Source: Chromatiaceae bacterium (lineage in GTDB: Bacteria > Pseudomonadota > Gammaproteobacteria > Chromatiales > Chromatiaceae). From it: a DNA stretch of 58,405 nucleotides. The DNA is taken from positions 1 through 58,405 of the forward strand of contig JAJDNF010000075.1 of assembly GCA_022340805.1 (NCBI GenBank), written 5' to 3'. Position numbers and translations under genes: made by a program. Positions 13,924-57,619 of this stretch are shown in pieces. The notes under the pieces were generated by a model. The model saw only the letters and a program-made list of their open reading frames with translations. It searched no databases and had not been told where the DNA came from. Position 1 is the stretch's first letter. Each line of letters begins with the position of its first letter.

Positions 13924-14047
13924 GGCGCATCAGGCACCAGCCGTAATGCAGCTGATAACGGCGGCCGCCACGCATCGCGGTGCAATACGCTTGTCTATTG
14001 CACCCTGGCCGGCACCGGAGCAGATTCGACCACATGCGGCACAGACC

Positions 14048-44863: not shown

Positions 44864-45345
44864 CGCCGGCACCGCGTATTGCACCGAATGTGGCGTTGTC
44901 CGGTGCATTACGGCTGGCACCTCATGCACCCTACGTGGGCTAAGACCTTTCTCTAACGAGGTAAAACCATATCGCATTGGACCGTATGTGCGGCAATCCG
45001 GCGCATTAAGGCTGGCGCCTCATGCACCCTACGTGGTTAACAGGATCACCGGCCCAAATGGCCCCCGCACAATGCATGCGTGGAGGGTGCAATAGCGCAG
45101 CGTATTGCACCGCGCGCGGCGCTATCCGGTGCATTGCCGCCGGCGCCTCATGCACCCTACGTGGGCTAAGACCTTTCTCTAACGGGGTAAAACCACATCG
45201 CATGGGACCGTATGTGCGGCAATCCGGTGCATTACGGCTGGCGCCTAATGCACGCTACGTGGTTAACAGGATCACCCTCCCAGACGGCCCCGCGCAATGC
45301 ATGCCTGTAGGGTGTAATAGCGCAGCGTATTGCACCGCTTCCACC
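44849..45345. repeat. Tandem repeats carrying the 3' end of the NlpC gene
   Basis: The gene end AAGACCTTCCTGTAGCG (44849-44865) reappears as AAGACCTTTCTCTAACG at 44942-44958 and at 45168-45184. Each is followed by GTAGGGTGC-family sequence. The last two units are 226 bases apart and nearly identical over more than 180 bases (compare 44921-45115 with 45147-45340). This fills most of the convergent gap; 45346-45390 shows nothing. Confidence 0.8.
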
Positions 45346-45390: not shown

Positions 45391-46584
45391 TCAGACAAAA
45401 CCCGCGAAATGCGTCGTGCCATCCACATGCTGCGCCGCATACGCGACGCCCACGCGCTGGATCTCGGCGATGTGGTCGGTGCTGTCCATCAGGCGCACAT
45501 GCTCGGCCGCAACGTCGGCCAGGCCCAGTGCCGCTAGGCCGGCCGGCGTGACGTCCGGATCGTAGCGCACGTACGAGAACAGCCGGTCGGTGGCACCGCG
45601 CTGCGCCGCGTCGACGGTCATGCCGCCGAACTCGCGATCGATCTCGGCGCCGTGACGGCACTCGCCGATCGTGCGGCAGGCCATGTCCCAGCCGTCACTC
45701 GCCGCGTTCATCAATGCCGAGGGGATGTTCTTGGCATGGTCGAGCAGCCACAGATCATCCCCTTCGAGACCCGGTCGTGCATTCGCGCTCCTGCCGGTGC
45801 CCACCGAGACCACCAGCAGCTCGTCCACGCCGCTCTTCCAGCCGATGTGGTATGGGGCCGCGGTCGCCATCTGGAAGGCCAGAAAGGCCGGGTTGTTGTA
45901 CGTGGTCACGCCGCCATCGACGAACACGAAGTGGTACTCGCGTTCGGTGCCTTCGGCGAAGGTCACCACCTCGGGCGGAAAGAAGGTCGGCGCCGCGGTG
46001 CTGGCGCGCACCAGCTGCCACAGCGGCAGATCCAGGTTGCAGTCGAGGCGCGGCGAGCCGTCGTCGCGCACGCGCTGATTGTACTTGCCGAACGGGTTGT
46101 TGCTGACCGGCCAGGGCGAATCACTGGTGTGGTTGCGCATCACCATCATCAGCAGCGTGCGCAGGCCCTCGTCGCCGAGACAGGCATGCGGCCTGCCGGC
46201 GCCCGGCTGGTAGCCGAGTGCCTTGTCCAACTCGGCCTGCAGCATGCGCGCCAGCGGTTCATCGTTGTAGCTGTAACGCAGCCGCTTGAGCAGCGCGGCC
46301 TTGTCGAACATGTCCCGGCCGCTGGCGACATAAAATTCGCGGATCTGGTCGACCGACATGCCGCACGAGATACACGCGGCGATGATCGCGCCGGTGCTGG
46401 TGCCGCAGGTAAAATCGAACCAATCGGCCAGCACCAGTTGCGGATTCCCGGTCGACCGGCGCAGGTCGTTCTCGATCCCGGCCAGGATCTCCACCGAGAT
46501 CAGGCCGAGGATCCCGCCGCCGTCGCAGGCCAGGATCTTTTTCGGCCCCTCGGCCCGGATGCGCTTGCGCAGCTGCTCTTGCAT
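45391..46584 (-). CDS. Patatin-like phospholipase (CapV-like)
   Basis: A 397-aa lipid acyl hydrolase with the patatin catalytic dyad. The oxyanion loop is DGGGILGLISVEIL (about 20-33), the nucleophile Ser lies in the GTSTGAIIA box (about 62-70), and the catalytic Asp is in FVDGGVTTYNNPAF (about 220). This set matches CapV-type effectors of CBASS and other abortive defences, which degrade membrane phospholipids when activated by a nucleotide. A GGGAGGG site precedes ATG 46584. It lies 66 bases downstream of the TPR/SLOG-like gene on the same strand, so both are likely one operon. A housekeeping lipase role is not excluded. Confidence 0.88.
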   Translation of the reverse strand: MQEQLRKRIRAEGPKKILACDGGGILGLISVEILAGIENDLRRSTGNPQLVLADWFDFTCGTSTGAIIAACISCGMSVDQIREFYVASGRDMFDKAALLKRLRYSYNDEPLARMLQAELDKALGYQPGAGRPHACLGDEGLRTLLMMVMRNHTSDSPWPVSNNPFGKYNQRVRDDGSPRLDCNLDLPLWQLVRASTAAPTFFPPEVVTFAEGTEREYHFVFVDGGVTTYNNPAFLAFQMATAAPYHIGWKSGVDELLVVSVGTGRSANARPGLEGDDLWLLDHAKNIPSALMNAASDGWDMACRTIGECRHGAEIDREFGGMTVDAAQRGATDRLFSYVRYDPDVTPAGLAALGLADVAAEHVRLMDSTDHIAEIQRVGVAYAAQHVDGTTHFAGFV

Positions 46585-46650
46585 ACAACCCTCCCTCGAT
46601 TATCGGAATGTGGCGTGTCGATGATCACCCGGCTTGGTCAAGACATGGCG

Positions 46651-48669
46651 TCACAATGTGCGGGTGTCGATCCAGGACACCTGCCCGGTGCGCTTGGCCA
46701 CCTCTTCGTACATGTGCGCGGTGCCGCCCGGTCCGTCGCCTCCGGCACCGTTCCACAGACAGACGAAGTGGACCTTGTCCACGCCCCAGGCGAGTGCCGT
46801 GTACAGCAGCCAGCGGTTGCAACGCTCATAGGGATAGCCCTTTTCGGCGAACGTCGGCGGATCACCCAGTTCCTTCGGCGCGGCCAGGACCGGCCGACCG
46901 AGTTTCTGCCGCGCATCCAGATAGCGCTGGCGCCAATGCTCACCGCAGCACAACACCGAGCGCTGCATGAACTCCGCCTCCAGGAACGGCTGCAGCCAGG
47001 AGATGCGCACGCCCAGCGCCAGGCAGGCCTCGGTGAACAGCAGGTCGCCACCGCAGGCGCCCTGGGTCAGGGCCAGGTCATCGGGACCCGCGTCGAGTTC
47101 GCGCAGCGTGGTCGCGATGCGCTGTGCGGCGACATCGACCCGGCTCTCGGGAAAGCGTTCGCCGGCCCGATCCGGGGCATCGACCATGTGGCCGCTGAAC
47201 AGGAACACGCGGCGCGGCACCCATTCGCGCCCGGGCAGCGGCAGACGGCGCATGGCCCGGTCGAGCACGTCGATCCCGGCCTGCACGTTGGCACTCGCGA
47301 AGCCCAGCTCCTGAAGCAGCAGCAACTGGGCGCGGCAGGCGTCCAACGCGAACCAGTCATCGCGGTTGATCGCGACCGCCGCCTTGTAGGCCGCCTCGGT
47401 CGACTGCGGCGTACCGACCAGGACCTGCAGATCGCCGAGCGAGGCACGCGCCCAGAACTGGTTGTCAGGGTCCTCCTCGCATTCGGCGGCGAAGCGCACC
47501 GCGCCCGGAATGATCTCCGCCGACTCGTGGAACGCGACGTCGCCGGTCAGGTATTCGTGCAGGCGCATCAGCGCCAGCGCATTGATCCCGGAGTAATAGT
47601 GCTTCGGATCGGCCCGGAACGCGGTCAGGTAACAGCTGATCGCCTCGCGCAGCAGCGCGTCCTCGTAGCGGGCGTCGTCGAGACGCTGCTCAGGCGAGGA
47701 ATCGGGCAGCCGCCAGCTCGCCACCCAGGCGTCCTTTTCGACCCGTCCGAGCAGCGCCCAGGTCTCCGCATCCTTCGGCCGGGCCTTGAGCATACCGCGG
47801 TAGTGGCTGCGCGCCATGTCGATCTGGTAGTCGCAGCAACCCGCCGCCGCGAGGCGCTGCAGGCACATGCCCTTCTCGCGCAGGCCGACCAGATGCTCCG
47901 GCTCGATCGCGAGACCCTTTTCGAGCTGCTCCAGCGCAAAACGATAGTGGCCGATGCGGCGCAGCGCCTTGCCGGCGCGGATCCAGGCGGTGGCACGGAA
48001 CGCGGCCACCGGGGCCTCGTCGGCCAGCACCAGCATATCGCCCACGCGGCCCTGCCGGCGCGCCTGGATGATCCTGCCCTCCCAGGCGTCGTAGGCCTCC
48101 CAGAACTCGCGGAAGTCGCCGACCCGCAGGCTGCGCCAGTCGGGTTCGATCAGGTTCGGGATGAGCTGGTAGACCGGGCTCATCTTGCGCCCGTGCCAGG
48201 ACTCCATGGTGTGCGTGACCATCTCGCACAGGCGCTCTCGGTCGCCGATGAGCGTGTCCGGATCCGGACCGCCGCCGCGAATCCCGTAGCGCACCTTGCG
48301 GTCGGTATAGACATCGAAGGCCTTGGTGGCCTGGCCGCCCGAGACCAGCACCACGCCGCGCGCGCGCAGCGCATGGCGCACGCCGAGTTCGTACCAGACG
48401 TTGGGGTTGTCGATGGTCAGGTCGACGACGACCAGGTCAGCGATCAACAGCTCCTGGAACATGTCGACCCGGATATCACCGGCGCGGGTCTCCTCGTCGG
48501 CACGGAACGCGAACAGGCCGGCCGCCTCGAGCGCCGGCTTGATCAGTTCCGCGTACACGCGGTTGAAATCCACCGGCAGGCCATCCGGCCCGGGCTTGGT
48601 ACCGAACGGCATGGCCACGAAGGCATGTGGCTTGATACTCAATGCAGGCTGACCCCGTGTCGCTGGCAC
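46651..48669 (-). CDS. TIR/deoxyribosyltransferase-like, TPR (TRAFs-binding/TPR-S-like) and SLOG-like protein
   Basis: A 672-aa cytoplasmic protein with three parts. Residues ~12-150 form a Rossmann-like domain with HAFVAMPFG, ADLVVVDLTIDNPNVWYELG and a later GVVLVSGG, as in nucleoside deoxyribosyltransferase/TIR-like nucleotide-processing domains. Residues ~190-460 are helical TPR-like repeats resembling the TRAFs-binding (TPR-S) region. Residues ~480-670 carry RRVFLFSGHMVDAPDR, ALTQGACGGDLLFTEACL and a C-terminal VCLWNGAGGDGPGGTAHM, resembling a SLOG-type nucleotide-binding domain. Such domains are linked by comparative genomics to nucleotide-based conflict systems. The start appears to be GTG 48669. 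It is probably co-transcribed with the patatin gene. Confidence 0.75.
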   Translation of the reverse strand: MPATRGQPALSIKPHAFVAMPFGTKPGPDGLPVDFNRVYAELIKPALEAAGLFAFRADEETRAGDIRVDMFQELLIADLVVVDLTIDNPNVWYELGVRHALRARGVVLVSGGQATKAFDVYTDRKVRYGIRGGGPDPDTLIGDRERLCEMVTHTMESWHGRKMSPVYQLIPNLIEPDWRSLRVGDFREFWEAYDAWEGRIIQARRQGRVGDMLVLADEAPVAAFRATAWIRAGKALRRIGHYRFALEQLEKGLAIEPEHLVGLREKGMCLQRLAAAGCCDYQIDMARSHYRGMLKARPKDAETWALLGRVEKDAWVASWRLPDSSPEQRLDDARYEDALLREAISCYLTAFRADPKHYYSGINALALMRLHEYLTGDVAFHESAEIIPGAVRFAAECEEDPDNQFWARASLGDLQVLVGTPQSTEAAYKAAVAINRDDWFALDACRAQLLLLQELGFASANVQAGIDVLDRAMRRLPLPGREWVPRRVFLFSGHMVDAPDRAGERFPESRVDVAAQRIATTLRELDAGPDDLALTQGACGGDLLFTEACLALGVRISWLQPFLEAEFMQRSVLCCGEHWRQRYLDARQKLGRPVLAAPKELGDPPTFAEKGYPYERCNRWLLYTALAWGVDKVHFVCLWNGAGGDGPGGTAHMYEEVAKRTGQVSWIDTRTL

Positions 48670-48808: not shown

Positions 48809-49768
48809 ATGCCCCGCCCAGCCGTTCCACATTGCATCGCACTGCTCGCCCTGCTGCTCGGGCTGGGCAGCGCGCTGGCCGAGGGCACCGACCCAGGCAT
48901 GCGATACGGGGTGCGCATCGAGGCACAACCACCACGCCTGGCCATGTTGGCGCGGCAGGTGCAACACGCCGCCCCCACGGTGCAGTGGGACTTCGTCAAC
49001 ATCACCCTGGACGTGCTGCTTTTCAGCTATCAGGAGGAGCTGAGCGATGCGGCGACCGAGCGTGCCAGCACCCCCGAGCGCCGCGCCAAGCTGGCGCGCT
49101 GGCGACGTGCCACCCGCGACCTGGTCGCGCGCCTGGAGTCCTCGCGCGCGCGCCTGGTCGACGGCGCCGGATTCGTGCTGTATGTCGATCCGCAGCACCA
49201 GATCCTGATCGTGATCGACGGACAACCGATCGCGGTCTCCGCACCCCGGCCCGAGGCGGAACGGCTTGTCGAGCAGCGCGTGCTCGCACAGTTCTGCGCC
49301 TTCAACGACTGCAGTGTGCTGGAGAGCGAGCCGAACGCCGCCGCGTTGCCGGCAGCGAGCGTGGGCAGCTGGATGTTCCAGTCGAACAGCCCGCCGGCGT
49401 TCGAGATCGATGGCGTGTTGCGTTGCGAGTTCGCCGACCTGAGCGAGCGCGCACGCAAGGCCGAGGCCTGCACGCGCGCCGCCGACGAGGCCGCGCAGTT
49501 CGACGCCGCGCTCGGCCAGGCACAGGCGCTGGGCCATCTCATCGACTGGGAGCGGCTGGCGGACACGCCACCCACCCGGCTCAGCAGCGGCCAGATCGTG
49601 GTAAGCAGCAACGGCGCCTTCGTGGAACTGCCGACGCGCATGTTGTCCAGGCTGGACAGTGCGGACTGGCAGCGGCTGATCGGCTGGCTGCAACGGCCGG
49701 AATCCAGGCAGCAGGCACCGGTGGTGCGCCGTGCCGACCGGCTGCTGGAGGAGCTCGCGGCGCGCTGA
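48809..49768 (+). CDS. Hypothetical exported protein
   Basis: A 319-aa protein with a clear signal peptide (HCIALLALLLGLGSALA, cleavage near residue 24). No family is recognised. The mature part is charged and mostly helical, with an RRAKLARWRRATRDLVARLE stretch and a pair of Cys residues in AQFCAFNDCSVLE (about 161 and 166) that could form a disulfide; further Cys occur in LRCEFAD and EACTRA. It diverges from the TPR/SLOG-like gene and converges on the glutaminase gene 16 bases away. Confidence 0.65.
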   Translation: MPRPAVPHCIALLALLLGLGSALAEGTDPGMRYGVRIEAQPPRLAMLARQVQHAAPTVQWDFVNITLDVLLFSYQEELSDAATERASTPERRAKLARWRRATRDLVARLESSRARLVDGAGFVLYVDPQHQILIVIDGQPIAVSAPRPEAERLVEQRVLAQFCAFNDCSVLESEPNAAALPAASVGSWMFQSNSPPAFEIDGVLRCEFADLSERARKAEACTRAADEAAQFDAALGQAQALGHLIDWERLADTPPTRLSSGQIVVSSNGAFVELPTRMLSRLDSADWQRLIGWLQRPESRQQAPVVRRADRLLEELAAR

Positions 49769-49784: not shown

Positions 49785-51623
49785 TCAGCCCAGGTGGCGC
49801 ATCAGCTGTGTGTCGCGCTCGATCTTGGTGGCGAAGTAGCTGGCCATGTTGACCAGCATCTGCATGCGCAGCGACATGTCGAGCTGGTCGAAGCGGATCT
49901 CGAGACACACCGCGTCGGTGATGGCGCGGACGTCGGCGGTGCGCTGCTTGCGGTTGACCAGCGCGATCTCGCCAAACACGGTCCCGGGGCCCAGCGTGGT
50001 CAGGCGCAGCTGGTGCCCGGCGTCGGTGTCGACCAGCACCTCGACGTCGCCGGCCAGGATGAAGTACAGGCAGTCCGCCGGATCACCGGCCTTGAACACC
50101 GCCGTACCGGCGCTGAAACGGCGCTCGGTCCCGGATGCCCTGAGGTGGTCGAGTTGGTCCTCACTCATGCCGGTGCACAGATACTGATCGCACAGCCCGG
50201 TCGCCGGGCCGGCCGCATGTGTCGCATCCCCCCGGCTGGCGATCAGTCGGTCTTCGCACCACTCCACCGCATGATCGGTGTCACCGAAGCGCAGCCAGTC
50301 CGGCACCTGCGGGTCACGGGCGAGCCTCTGCAGATGCCGTCTGAAGGTATAGAGCTGTTCACAGTCGGTGAAGAACAGGCCCTTGCGCTGCTCCGCGGCA
50401 CGGCTGCACAGCTCGCTCAACAGGCGTATCGCCGCGCGATCGGCGGCGATCACGCGCCTGAGATTCACCACCAGGTAATCGATCTCGGCCAGCGAGCCGA
50501 GCATGTCGAAGGTGACCGATTCGGCGTTGCCGAACAGCAGCTCGCCCTGCAGCTCGTAGATGCAGATGCACTTGCCCTCGGCAGCCAGGATCTCGAGTTC
50601 GGCCTGGCTGCGGCGCCGGCGCGAGGGAAACTGCGCGCAGTCGTAGACCTTGCGCACGATCGAGGCCGAGGTGGAGCGCGCGACGTTGAACAGGTGCAGG
50701 CTGAAATCGTTGGACAGGCGCTTGCACGCCTCGATGCCGCGCACGCTGTTGCCCTTGGCGTCCAGGCGCGGTGAAAACACCCCGAGCCCGAACTGGCCCG
50801 GCAGCACCGCCATGATGCCGCCACCGACACCGCTCTTGGCCGGCATGCCGACATTGAAGATCCAGGCGCCCGAGTAGTCGTACATGCCGCAGGTGCTCAT
50901 CACGCTGAGGACCTTCTCGACGTAGCGTGACTGCAGCGCCACCACGCCGGTGACCGGGTTCACGCCGTTGTTGGCCAGGCAGCCCGCCATCATCGCCAGG
51001 TCGCGGGCGGTGACCAGGATCGAGCACTGCCGGAAGTACAGGTCGACCACCTCCTCGGGCGCCCGGTCGACGATGCCGTGCCCGTACAACAGGTGGGCGA
51101 TGGCGCGGTTGCGGTGGCCGGTGTCGCTCTCCGAGCGATAGACCTTTTCGTCGATCTCCACCGGCCGGCCGGTGTAGCGCGCGAAGGTCTCGAGAATCCG
51201 CTGCATCGGATCGGCCCCCGGCTGCGCCTTGATCATGCCGGTCGTCGCAATGGCCCCGGCATTGATCATCGGGTTGAGCGGGCGGCCGGTGTCCGGTTCG
51301 AGACTGATCGAGTTGAAGGCCTCGCCGGAGGGCTCGACCCCGACCTTGCCGACCACGTGGTCGAGCCCGCGATCCTCCAGGGCCAGGCCGTAGGTAATGG
51401 CCTTCGACACCGACTGGATCGTGAAGCTCTGGCGGGACTCGCCCACCTGGTAGACATGGCCGTCGACCGTGACCAGGGCTATGCCCAGCCAGGACGGATC
51501 CGCGCGGGTCAACTCGGGAATATAGCTGGCGACCTCGCCCTGATCCATCTCGAGCAATTTTGCATACAGTTCTTCGAGGTATCGCTGTACGGGTGCCAGT
51601 TGCAGGGCCTTGTTTATCGACAC
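49785..51623 (-). CDS. glsA: Glutaminase fused to STAS and cyclic-nucleotide-binding domains
   Basis: A 612-aa enzyme. Residues ~1-315 are a serine-dependent beta-lactamase-fold glutaminase (glutamine to glutamate plus ammonia) with the SxxK motif in TIQSVSKAITYGL, NPMINAGAIATTG and SGAWIFNVGMPAKSGVGGGI. A STAS domain follows (about 335-440: CICIYELQGELLFGNAESV). The C-terminus is a Crp-type cNMP domain (about 490-600) with phosphate-binding cassette FGEIALVNRKQRTAD, retaining the Gly-Glu and Arg-Thr ligand residues. Simple bacterial glutaminases are ~310 aa, so two regulatory modules are added. The start is GTG 51623. Confidence 0.93.
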   Translation of the reverse strand: MSINKALQLAPVQRYLEELYAKLLEMDQGEVASYIPELTRADPSWLGIALVTVDGHVYQVGESRQSFTIQSVSKAITYGLALEDRGLDHVVGKVGVEPSGEAFNSISLEPDTGRPLNPMINAGAIATTGMIKAQPGADPMQRILETFARYTGRPVEIDEKVYRSESDTGHRNRAIAHLLYGHGIVDRAPEEVVDLYFRQCSILVTARDLAMMAGCLANNGVNPVTGVVALQSRYVEKVLSVMSTCGMYDYSGAWIFNVGMPAKSGVGGGIMAVLPGQFGLGVFSPRLDAKGNSVRGIEACKRLSNDFSLHLFNVARSTSASIVRKVYDCAQFPSRRRRSQAELEILAAEGKCICIYELQGELLFGNAESVTFDMLGSLAEIDYLVVNLRRVIAADRAAIRLLSELCSRAAEQRKGLFFTDCEQLYTFRRHLQRLARDPQVPDWLRFGDTDHAVEWCEDRLIASRGDATHAAGPATGLCDQYLCTGMSEDQLDHLRASGTERRFSAGTAVFKAGDPADCLYFILAGDVEVLVDTDAGHQLRLTTLGPGTVFGEIALVNRKQRTADVRAITDAVCLEIRFDQLDMSLRMQMLVNMASYFATKIERDTQLMRHLG

Positions 51624-54862: not shown

Positions 54863-57619
54863 TCAGGACCGCGCGCCGGGGTCCTTTGCCAGCGACTTGT
54901 TGACCGAGTATTCACTGGTCTGGCGCAGGCGCGCGCCGATGATGCGGGTCAGGTTGCGGAACAACCGGAACGCGAGCAGCGGGAAGCGCCGGGTCAGCCG
55001 GTCGATGCGTTCCCAGCTCAGCACCAGCACCCGGGTCTCCTCCAGCGCGACCACGTCGGCGGTGCGCTGCCCGCCGGACAGCGGCCCGACCTCGCCGAAC
55101 AGGTCGCCGACCTGCATCACCCGCAGGTGCCTGAGCGGCTCGCCGTCGGTGCGCTTCTGCGCCTCGACCCGGCCTTCGAGCACCACGAACATCTCGGTCC
55201 CCTCGTCGCCCTCGCGGATGATCACGCCGTCCTTCGCGAAGCTGCGAACCTCGCTGGCCAGCAGGATCTTCTTGATCTGCCAGATGCGCATGCCCTGGAA
55301 CAGCGGCGAGCGCTGCAGCGCCTCCTTCTGCACCTTGTACGACAACAGGTCCCACACCGTCAGCAGTTCGCGCGAGGCGAGCAGCAACGGGGTCAGCACG
55401 AAGGTGGCAAGCAGCGCGACCAGGATGACCATCGCGCTGAGCAGGCCGAAGTTCACCACCGGGCCGAAGCTCGAGGTCGCAAACACGCCAAAACCGGCCG
55501 CCAGTGCGATCGAGGTGGCAAATACCGGCACCGCCTCGGCGTGGATCACCGCCTCGAGCGCCGCGGCGCGGCTCTCGTGGCGCTTGAGTTCCTCGTGGAA
55601 GCGCGACATCAGGTGCATGGTGTCGTCGACGCAGATGCCCAGCGCGATCGCAGCCACCATGCTGGTGCCGGCGTTCAGCGGGATGCCGGCCAGCGCCATG
55701 ACCCCGAACAGCACGGTCACCGGCAGCAGGTTGGGCAGCAGCGCGATGAACCCGGCGCGCAGGCTCACGTACAGGATCGACAGCAGCGCGACGATCACCG
55801 CACCGACCAGCAGCAGCGACTGCAGCTGGCCCTGCGCCATCTGCTCGACCGCGACGTTCGACAGCACCGACTTGCCGGTGATCTCGACCCGCAGCGCCGG
55901 GTCTATGTTGGCCTTCACAAAGGCGCTGATCTTGTCGATCGCCCGGTTCAGCTCGTCCGAAGAGCTGACGTTGTGCCTGACCAGGATGCGCGCACGGTCG
56001 TAGTTGGACGACACGAAGCCCGCCACGTCGTCGTGTTTGATGAACAGCATGTACTCGCGCACCATGTCGTTGGCCTGCGGCAGGCGCGGCGTAGGGTCGC
56101 TGGCGTCCTCCATCACGCTGTTGACCATGGCCATGAAGTTGGCGAACGAGAACGAGCGGTCGAACTCGTGCATGCCGTCGACGAAGGCCTGGATCTTCAG
56201 CACCTCCTCGAGGTACTTGACCTGCAGGAAGGTGTCGTCGATCCCCGAGTCGACCACGATCGAGAACGAGTTCACCCCCGAGAGCTCGGTATGGATGCGC
56301 TCGATGTCGGCGCGCAACTCGGACTTCGCGTCCAGATAGTCGAGCAGATCGTTGTTGATGCGCAGCTTGGTCGCGGACAGCAACGCCACCGCGACCAGCA
56401 GCGCCGCGATCACGAACACCGCGATCCGGCGCCGCTGCGCCGAGGTCACCACGCTCGCCACCCAGCGCTCGAAGCGTGAGGGCCCACGCGCCTGTTCGAC
56501 CGTCTCGCCCTTCTGGTGGCCAAGGTAGCGCAACATCACCGGTACCAGCAGCACCGTGATCACGAAGTTGAACAGCAGCCCGGTCGAGGCCACCAGGCCG
56601 AACTGGTACAGCAGTTCGATGTCGTTCATCGCGATCGAGAAGAAACCCAGGTAGGTGGTGATGAAGGTCAGCAGCACCGCCATCCCCATGTTGTCGGCCA
56701 TGCGGGTGATGGCCGCGCGCCTGGGCAGCTGGTCATTGATCCCGGCGGAATATTCCGCGATCAGGTGGATGTCCTCGGTCGAGCCGATGATGATCACCAG
56801 CGCCGGCACGATCGAGGTCATGATGTTGACCGGGATGCCGAGCAGGCCCATGAAGCCGAGCGTCCAGAGCACGCTGATCGCCGCGGTGGTCAGCGGGATG
56901 AAGGCCGCGGTGGCGCGGCGCAGGCTGAAAGCCAGCGTCAGCAGCAGGACCAGCACCGACAGCGGCAGGAACTCGCGCTGGTCGGCGCGCAGCTTCGCGG
57001 TCAGGTCGCTGCGGATCGCGGCCGCGCCGACCTGGTAGACCTCGGCGATCTGCGCACGCAGCGGCGCGATGGCCTGCTCGATCGCGCTGGTGACCTTGCG
57101 GTCGAACTCGGCATCGCCCGGGCTCTCGGCGAAGTACAGGTTGATCGCCATCGTCTGCCCGTCGTCGGAGATCAGGTTGCCGAGCACCAGCGGGTTGCGG
57201 ATCGCATCGGCCTTCAGCTGCGCGATCTCCTGCGGCGTGGTCGGCGGCGGGTCCAGGTACGGCTTGGTATGGATGGTGTCGTCGATGTTCTTCAGGTTCG
57301 GGACATTGAACAGGCTGGTGGTCTTGGACACGAACGGCAGCGCGCCGAGCGTCCGGACCACCTCCCTGACCGCGGCGACCTTGTCCGGGTCGAACACGTC
57401 CGGGTCGCGCAGCACCACGATCGCAATGTCCTCGGCGCCGAAGGTCTGCTCGGTCTTGACGAAGTAGTCCCAGGCCGGCGTGCCCTTCTCGAGCATGCTC
57501 TCGGCCGCGACCTTGATGTGCAGCTTGTCGAACTGGGTGGCGAACAGCAGGGTGACGACGGTCAGGAAGCCCAGCACCAGCCAGGCGTGGTCGGCGGCGA
57601 AATTGATCAGGCGTTTCAC
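54863..57619 (-). CDS. MMPL/RND-type exporter with C-terminal cyclic-nucleotide-binding domain
   Basis: A 918-aa inner-membrane protein with two six-helix RND halves and two large periplasmic loops, resembling the hopanoid/lipid-linked MMPL group. TM4-like segment NIMTSIVPALVIIIGSTEDI and its second-half counterpart GTSMVAAIALGICVDDTMHLM carry acidic residues for proton coupling. The last ~130 residues are a Crp-like cNMP domain with FGEVGPLSGGQRTAD. The start is GTG 57619 preceded by GGAGAG. Substrate unknown; the nucleotide-binding tail implies direct second-messenger control. Confidence 0.88.
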   Translation of the reverse strand: MKRLINFAADHAWLVLGFLTVVTLLFATQFDKLHIKVAAESMLEKGTPAWDYFVKTEQTFGAEDIAIVVLRDPDVFDPDKVAAVREVVRTLGALPFVSKTTSLFNVPNLKNIDDTIHTKPYLDPPPTTPQEIAQLKADAIRNPLVLGNLISDDGQTMAINLYFAESPGDAEFDRKVTSAIEQAIAPLRAQIAEVYQVGAAAIRSDLTAKLRADQREFLPLSVLVLLLTLAFSLRRATAAFIPLTTAAISVLWTLGFMGLLGIPVNIMTSIVPALVIIIGSTEDIHLIAEYSAGINDQLPRRAAITRMADNMGMAVLLTFITTYLGFFSIAMNDIELLYQFGLVASTGLLFNFVITVLLVPVMLRYLGHQKGETVEQARGPSRFERWVASVVTSAQRRRIAVFVIAALLVAVALLSATKLRINNDLLDYLDAKSELRADIERIHTELSGVNSFSIVVDSGIDDTFLQVKYLEEVLKIQAFVDGMHEFDRSFSFANFMAMVNSVMEDASDPTPRLPQANDMVREYMLFIKHDDVAGFVSSNYDRARILVRHNVSSSDELNRAIDKISAFVKANIDPALRVEITGKSVLSNVAVEQMAQGQLQSLLLVGAVIVALLSILYVSLRAGFIALLPNLLPVTVLFGVMALAGIPLNAGTSMVAAIALGICVDDTMHLMSRFHEELKRHESRAAALEAVIHAEAVPVFATSIALAAGFGVFATSSFGPVVNFGLLSAMVILVALLATFVLTPLLLASRELLTVWDLLSYKVQKEALQRSPLFQGMRIWQIKKILLASEVRSFAKDGVIIREGDEGTEMFVVLEGRVEAQKRTDGEPLRHLRVMQVGDLFGEVGPLSGGQRTADVVALEETRVLVLSWERIDRLTRRFPLLAFRLFRNLTRIIGARLRQTSEYSVNKSLAKDPGARS

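Follow-up and report, generated by a model that had tools for sequence, protein, structure and literature searches.

A DrHyd–TPR-S–SLOG Core Protein and a CapV-like Patatin as a Candidate Two-Gene Defence Module in a Chromatiaceae Bacterium

Gene Pair and Reading Frames

The DNA analysed here, called the window, is a stretch of 58,405 nt from a Chromatiaceae bacterium (contig JAJDNF010000075.1, assembly GCA_022340805.1). On its minus strand it encodes a three-domain protein (46651..48669, 672 aa as read), referred to as the core, and, directly downstream on the same strand, a patatin-like phospholipase (45391..46584, 397 aa), the two being separated by 66 nt (46585..46650, minus strand). The coordinates, the common strand and the spacing of both open reading frames were as claimed in the original prediction, a note made from the sequence alone that had proposed the pair as a defence system. 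Third-position GC is 0.87 in each frame.

The annotated GTG start of the core (48669) is probably too early. The in-frame TTG at 48642 gives MSIKPHAFVAMPFG, which matches the MSIRPHAF start of two aligned homologues (L041 and L079); a start there would make the protein about 663 aa long. The whole core could be aligned with 51 homologues, chosen from 80 core loci, at 51–77% identity (52 rows including the window). The three-domain arrangement is therefore not a chance one.

Domains of the Core Protein

The central region, residues about 187–480 (47230..48111, minus strand), is predicted to form a TPR-S superhelix. The TPR-S (TRAFs-binding) assignment made in the original prediction was borne out by Pfam, with PF20308 matching residues 242–368 at an E value of 5.6e-15 and 56.2 bits against a curated cut-off of 27.6; MAP3K_TRAF_bd stayed under its own cut-off (20.2 vs 24.1). 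No Pfam match at E 0.1 was obtained for the N- and C-terminal domains, and PADLOC gave a weak TIR-effector match to residues 41–122 (E 3.1e-4). The identities of the end domains were taken from the predicted structure of the core by fold comparison (re-ranked Foldseek matches to PDB chains), both domains being judged within the whole-core model; the whole-core search itself was dominated by TPR chains.

By this comparison, the N-terminal domain, residues about 14–160 (48190..48630, minus strand), has a predicted Rossmannoid fold of the nucleoside deoxyribosyltransferase type (DrHyd). It had been described as a TIR-like, nucleotide-processing domain; the Rossmannoid fold agrees with that description, but DrHyd is a better label than TIR. 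The C-terminal domain, residues about 483–672 (46654..47223, minus strand), has a predicted SLOG fold, as proposed, and it is of the YpsA type. Both ends of the core thus match nucleotide-binding Rossmannoid folds, a point on which the original prediction could have failed and did not.

Candidate active-site residues are conserved in both domains. D83 and Glu94, the latter in N88-P-N-V-W-Y-E94-x-G, were present in all 52 aligned rows; they correspond to the Asp and the catalytic Glu in the D...N-x-N...E-L-G region of the deoxyribosyltransferase superfamily. The core has no direct match to PF05014 at E 0.1. A profile of its N-terminal domain finds two proteins that exceed the PF05014 cut-off (E 5e-8 and 1e-6, search space set to 4000), and the D83/E94 region aligns by profile with these PF05014-matching proteins, so that the apparent link to this family is indirect. 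In the SLOG domain, the GxD motif (G540-G-D542) has G540 in 52/52 rows and D542 in 51/52, and it corresponds to the SLOG GxD/E motif as described in an excerpt of PMC6459960. PF06908 (YpsA) gave no sequence match in the core, nor any at E 0.001 in 56 genomes, its own included. Against PDB sequences, the N- and C-domain profiles had no meaningful match, and the full-core profile matched mainly TPR proteins.

The best structural match of the predicted TPR-S superhelix is the central regulatory region of ASK1. In the model, the N-terminal part and the TPR superhelix, taken together, look like the regulatory half of ASK1, a likeness that the original prediction had no means of seeing.

The Patatin

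The 397-aa protein matches the Patatin family PF01734 above its cut-off (E 3e-20). Its Ser/Asp dyad was found intact, as had been claimed: Ser63 (GTSTG) and Asp223 (DGG) are unchanged in 23/23 aligned rows. Fold and dyad make it like CapV/CapE across its whole length, with a score of 100.6 bits against the NCBIfam model for CapV of CBASS (cyclic-oligonucleotide-based antiphage signalling system; NF041079), below the cut-off of 200.

Linkage of Core and Patatin

Co-occurrence of the two genes was surveyed in 293 genomes: 9 of the genus, 84 other relatives, a Zoogloea-family sample of 121 and 79 of the Nitrospira genus. The patatin was found in 25 genomes. In 23 of them it lies at most 2.5 kb from the core or from a form of the core that is split or short, and in the other two it stands at a contig end. 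This association, on which the original prediction had made the pairing depend, is far beyond chance.

Within the genus, the core is present in 7/9 genomes (G001 and G007 have neither gene) and the patatin in 6/9, always adjoining the core with 43–94 nt between aligned ends; the contig of G008 ends beyond the patatin. The 84 further relatives gave no patatin match at E 1e-20; their core homologues number only four, all partial or distant, one of which (G053) covers residues 16–624 at 31% identity. The Zoogloea-family sample has the patatin in 10/121 genomes, and no copy is more than about 0.5 kb away from a core, one of its split pieces or a short DrHyd-TPR form. The Nitrospira-genus set has it in 9/79, seven copies lying 2.5 kb or less from a core or a fragment of one and two at contig ends. 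At E 1e-100 the core itself was detected in 7/121 and 14/79 genomes of these two sets, the searches of which used fixed E-value limits and missed weaker homologues. Under these limits, eight genomes (five of the family sample, three of Nitrospira) first seemed to have a patatin without a core. In two of them (L094, L095) a full-length core homologue falls below the limit, in five (L092, L093, L096, L097, L098) the core is short or split, and in one (L099) the copy is at a contig start.

The same arrangement is seen in the 80 core loci, the best 80 of 255 core relatives. The patatin is present in 41 of them, downstream of the core in 41/41 and on the same strand in 40/41; in 30 it follows the core directly, with 25–114 nt between aligned ends. 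Two Zoogloea loci have no patatin where relatives with the same flank carry one. Co-divergence of patatin and core is moderate, with r 0.51 over 29 pairs (the window and 28 of the 30 tightly linked loci, one having been dropped for a patatin score below the limit and one for fewer than 300 aligned residues), and could also be explained by shared species history.

Other Partners and Split Forms

The patatin is one of several partners of the core, the others not having been visible to the original prediction. In the 80 core loci, a caspase is found in 17, downstream of the core in 17/17, and a protein of about 1000–1900 aa with CHAT and alpha/beta-hydrolase domains also in 17, the copy in L053 having its own TPR-S. 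Less frequent are TIR-nSTAND1-WD40 proteins or relatives (8/80), DUF4231 (6/80), DUF4062-TPR (5/80), SIR2-TIR (4/80) and TIR-receiver proteins (3/80), and some loci combine these with a patatin. Partner queries other than the patatin were picked from the same 80 loci, so the counts describe this set and give no independent measure of enrichment; the only control is an internal one, direction (downstream patatin 41/41, caspase 17/17).

A core tree of 79 rows spans eight named phyla. The nearest-partner label, assigned to 74 of the rows, requires at least 24 changes on the tree, compared with a minimum of 32 and a mean of 37 in 200 shuffles. Partners are therefore swapped at some points and inherited at others; their exchange is not free.

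Split cores were also found. L092 has a SLOG protein alone beside the patatin and a 469-aa DrHyd-TPR protein. In L098, from the Nitrospira-genus set, the set of parts is fullest, and all are encoded on the same strand: DUF4062-TPR, CHAT, patatin, a core-TPR protein of 428 aa, caspase, SLOG and DUF4231. Among plasmids, 63 records match with short core forms, all of which cover less than 80% of the core; two of them (L133 and L135) adjoin TIR and DUF4231 genes, and on a Rhizobium plasmid, genes for SLOG, DUF4231, DUF4071 and an annotated patatin lie inside 7 kb. In L135, a Klebsiella pneumoniae plasmid, a TRAFs-binding (DrHyd-TPR-S) gene, two TIR genes and one DUF4231 gene stand between sul1 and a recombinase with a Tn3 transposase; this is a related cassette travelling with resistance genes.

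DrHyd-type domains were observed elsewhere as well. Four loci of G005 and G002 (L125, L126, L130, L131), on contigs other than that of the pair, have neighbouring genes with NPNxxYE-type DrHyd domains, two of them above the PF05014 cut-off. In G003, a 321-aa gene about 4.5 kb from the pair (L110, 14550) has a DrHyd-like stretch with 34% identity over 115 core residues. In addition, 24 phage records match the core, among them Staphylococcus, Streptococcus and Dorea phages; the 15 matches listed cover little beyond the DrHyd part (17–29% of the query), and these phage-encoded proteins could be prophage-borne defence or counter-defence genes.

Proposed Mechanism and Alternatives

The reading that we prefer, with a probability of about 0.5, is that the pair is a nucleotide-gated cell-suicide module of two genes, most likely antiviral, which works without a cyclic-dinucleotide synthase (CD-NTase) and swaps its effectors. 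It builds on the predicted folds, the conserved candidate active-site residues, the patatin dyad and the linkage; from these we infer a chemistry, a trigger and an antiviral role. On infection or related stress, the DrHyd domain, with Glu94 as nucleophile, would make a messenger by breaking an N-glycosidic bond, the substrate probably being NAD+ or a nucleotide related to it; this domain is the probable signal maker. The TPR-S superhelix and the YpsA-type SLOG domain would bind this or a host-derived messenger and set the threshold. The signal, or the switched core itself, would then activate the CapV-like patatin, which would degrade membrane phospholipids and stop the cell ahead of phage release. 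In relatives, caspase, CHAT/hydrolase, TIR, SIR2 or DUF4231 proteins replace or join the patatin. The working logic of signal and effector would be like that of CBASS or Thoeris, with another signal maker. The original prediction, in which the large protein senses infection and makes or binds a nucleotide that licenses the phospholipase, is borne out in part.

The main rival is direct gating by the scaffold, as in ASK1. The TPR superhelix would contact the patatin and inhibit or activate it, as the ASK1 regulatory half does with its kinase; no diffusible messenger would be needed, and DrHyd and SLOG would only sense a nucleotide made by host or phage. We consider it rather unlikely, since a core that stands beside such unrelated partners as caspase, SIR2-TIR and CHAT is more easily explained by one diffusible signal common to them all than by a binding face that they share, and a Glu94 kept in every aligned row would be unusual for a pure scaffold. 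Simple coincidence of neighbours, with a patatin that serves ordinary lipid metabolism beside a core that regulates something else, could draw on the cores that have no patatin, but it is very improbable in view of the strand and order of the two genes in the core loci and of their proximity in all patatin-bearing genomes except the two at contig ends.

Several observations favour a module for stress or programmed death without a specifically antiviral role, responding for example to oxidative or NAD+ stress, as ASK1 does in animals. The context of a defence island, which the original prediction had looked to, was not supported. Housekeeping genes surround the pair in the window and in the siblings, no defence gene was found among the ten window neighbours scanned, and the core follows HTS, MFS and NlpC genes at an identical chromosomal site in five siblings (G002–G006, all those whose contig reaches this side), where only the far side varies; the patatin is present at this site in four of them and not in G006. 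Moreover, no known partner was found in 16/80 core loci, seven of these having less than 3 kb of downstream sequence. The ASK1-type architecture itself also fits a stress module. Against it stand the patchy occurrence of the core in the genus, in the 84 relatives and in the two larger sets, the turnover of partners on the tree, and the plasmid-borne short forms adjoining TIR and DUF4231 genes, so that we regard the stress module as quite unlikely.

If the suicide-module reading is true, the pair would extend the signal-gated suicide systems to one in which a patatin is employed with no CD-NTase, and it would offer a bacterial model in which the regulatory architecture of ASK1 could readily be studied. 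Since likely death effectors are swapped around a constant core, a common signal would be directly testable with several readouts. A wider and more tentative proposal, which we hold as doubtful, makes the core the counterpart in bacteria of the regulatory half of ASK1. The core would generate and sense a signal autonomously, DrHyd making an NAD+-derived messenger that TPR-S and SLOG read, and would drive exchangeable effectors of cell death (patatin, caspase, CHAT/hydrolase, SIR2-TIR, DUF4231) with no cyclic-nucleotide synthase. This would, if true, define a separate class of signal-gated immunity and explain the origin of the ASK1 architecture.

Neighbouring Genes and Repeats

The distribution of a neighbouring glutaminase gene, which in G003 and G005 is not on the contig of the core and for which the remaining six siblings gave no match at E 1e-60, had suggested that the window holds a mobile island. 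This was rejected, since HTS, MFS and NlpC flank the core constantly in G002–G006.

Divergent from the core, a 319-aa protein is encoded at 48809–49768 (plus strand), with no Pfam match and, by eye, a signal-peptide-like start. A gene 35–39% identical to it adjoins the core in 4/6 sibling loci, and it is possibly just a fast-evolving neighbour. A palindromic repeat like repetitive extragenic palindromic elements, GGTGCAATACGCTGCGCTATTGCACC, occurs at 45086, 45311, 51809, 52023 and 52204, all on the minus strand and one copy with a mismatch. The copies sit within larger repeat units that flank the pair on both sides; a weaker copy is at 13979, and none was found in 100 shuffles. In addition, a glutaminase-STAS protein with a cyclic-nucleotide-binding (cNMP-binding) domain (49785–51623, minus strand) lies near an MMPL transporter with such a domain (54863–57619, minus strand); both match Pycsar models by cross-hit through this domain.

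Comparison with Known Systems

The pair shares with CBASS carrying CapV/CapE the whole-chain fold and dyad of the patatin. It differs in showing no cyclic-dinucleotide synthase, as the original prediction had noted: no CD-NTase was found among the window genes scanned, and SMODS (PF18144) was found in none of the nine genus genomes, the pair's own (about 90% complete) included, other CD-NTase models not having been searched. The SMODS result argues against a borrowed CBASS signal. With the patatin at half the equivalog cut-off, membership of CBASS was rejected.

Thoeris combines a nucleotide-processing Rossmannoid domain with a SLOG-type sensor, a logic also present in the window core. In Thoeris these are ThsB (TIR) and ThsA (SIR2-SLOG), whereas the core is a single protein in which TPR-S separates DrHyd from SLOG, its partner is a lipase, and neither a TIR nor a SIR2 gene was found among the window genes scanned. 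Compared with YpsA, the Bacillus subtilis SLOG protein (2nx2), the SLOG domain of the window is fused to TPR-S and departs from it in sequence, as the PF06908 search indicated. An excerpt of PMC9503650 places DrHyd, SLOG and TIR in a single clade whose members bind or process nucleotides and NAD+.

Parts of the ASK signalosome have been traced to bacterial conflict systems, according to an excerpt of PMC8195603. Unlike the regulatory half of animal ASK1 (MAP3K5), the window core is bacterial, has no kinase and carries a SLOG domain instead; its alignment with ASK1 structure 8qgy has a root-mean-square deviation of 9.9, so that domain placement differs. No paper describing the operon, or testing a fused DrHyd-TPR-S-SLOG core with a patatin, was recognised in the literature searched, which lacks most subscription papers and is no proof of novelty.

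The closest relatives are the TPR-S conflict systems, which Burroughs and Aravind (2020, J Bacteriol) reportedly described as prokaryotic relatives of the ASK signalosome, with DrHyd before TPR-S and partners of similar kinds. The window core shares with them a TPR-S domain above the curated cut-off and appears to differ in the fused C-terminal YpsA-type SLOG domain and the adjoining CapV-like patatin. We regard the pair as a variant of these TPR-S conflict systems, a kind already predicted.
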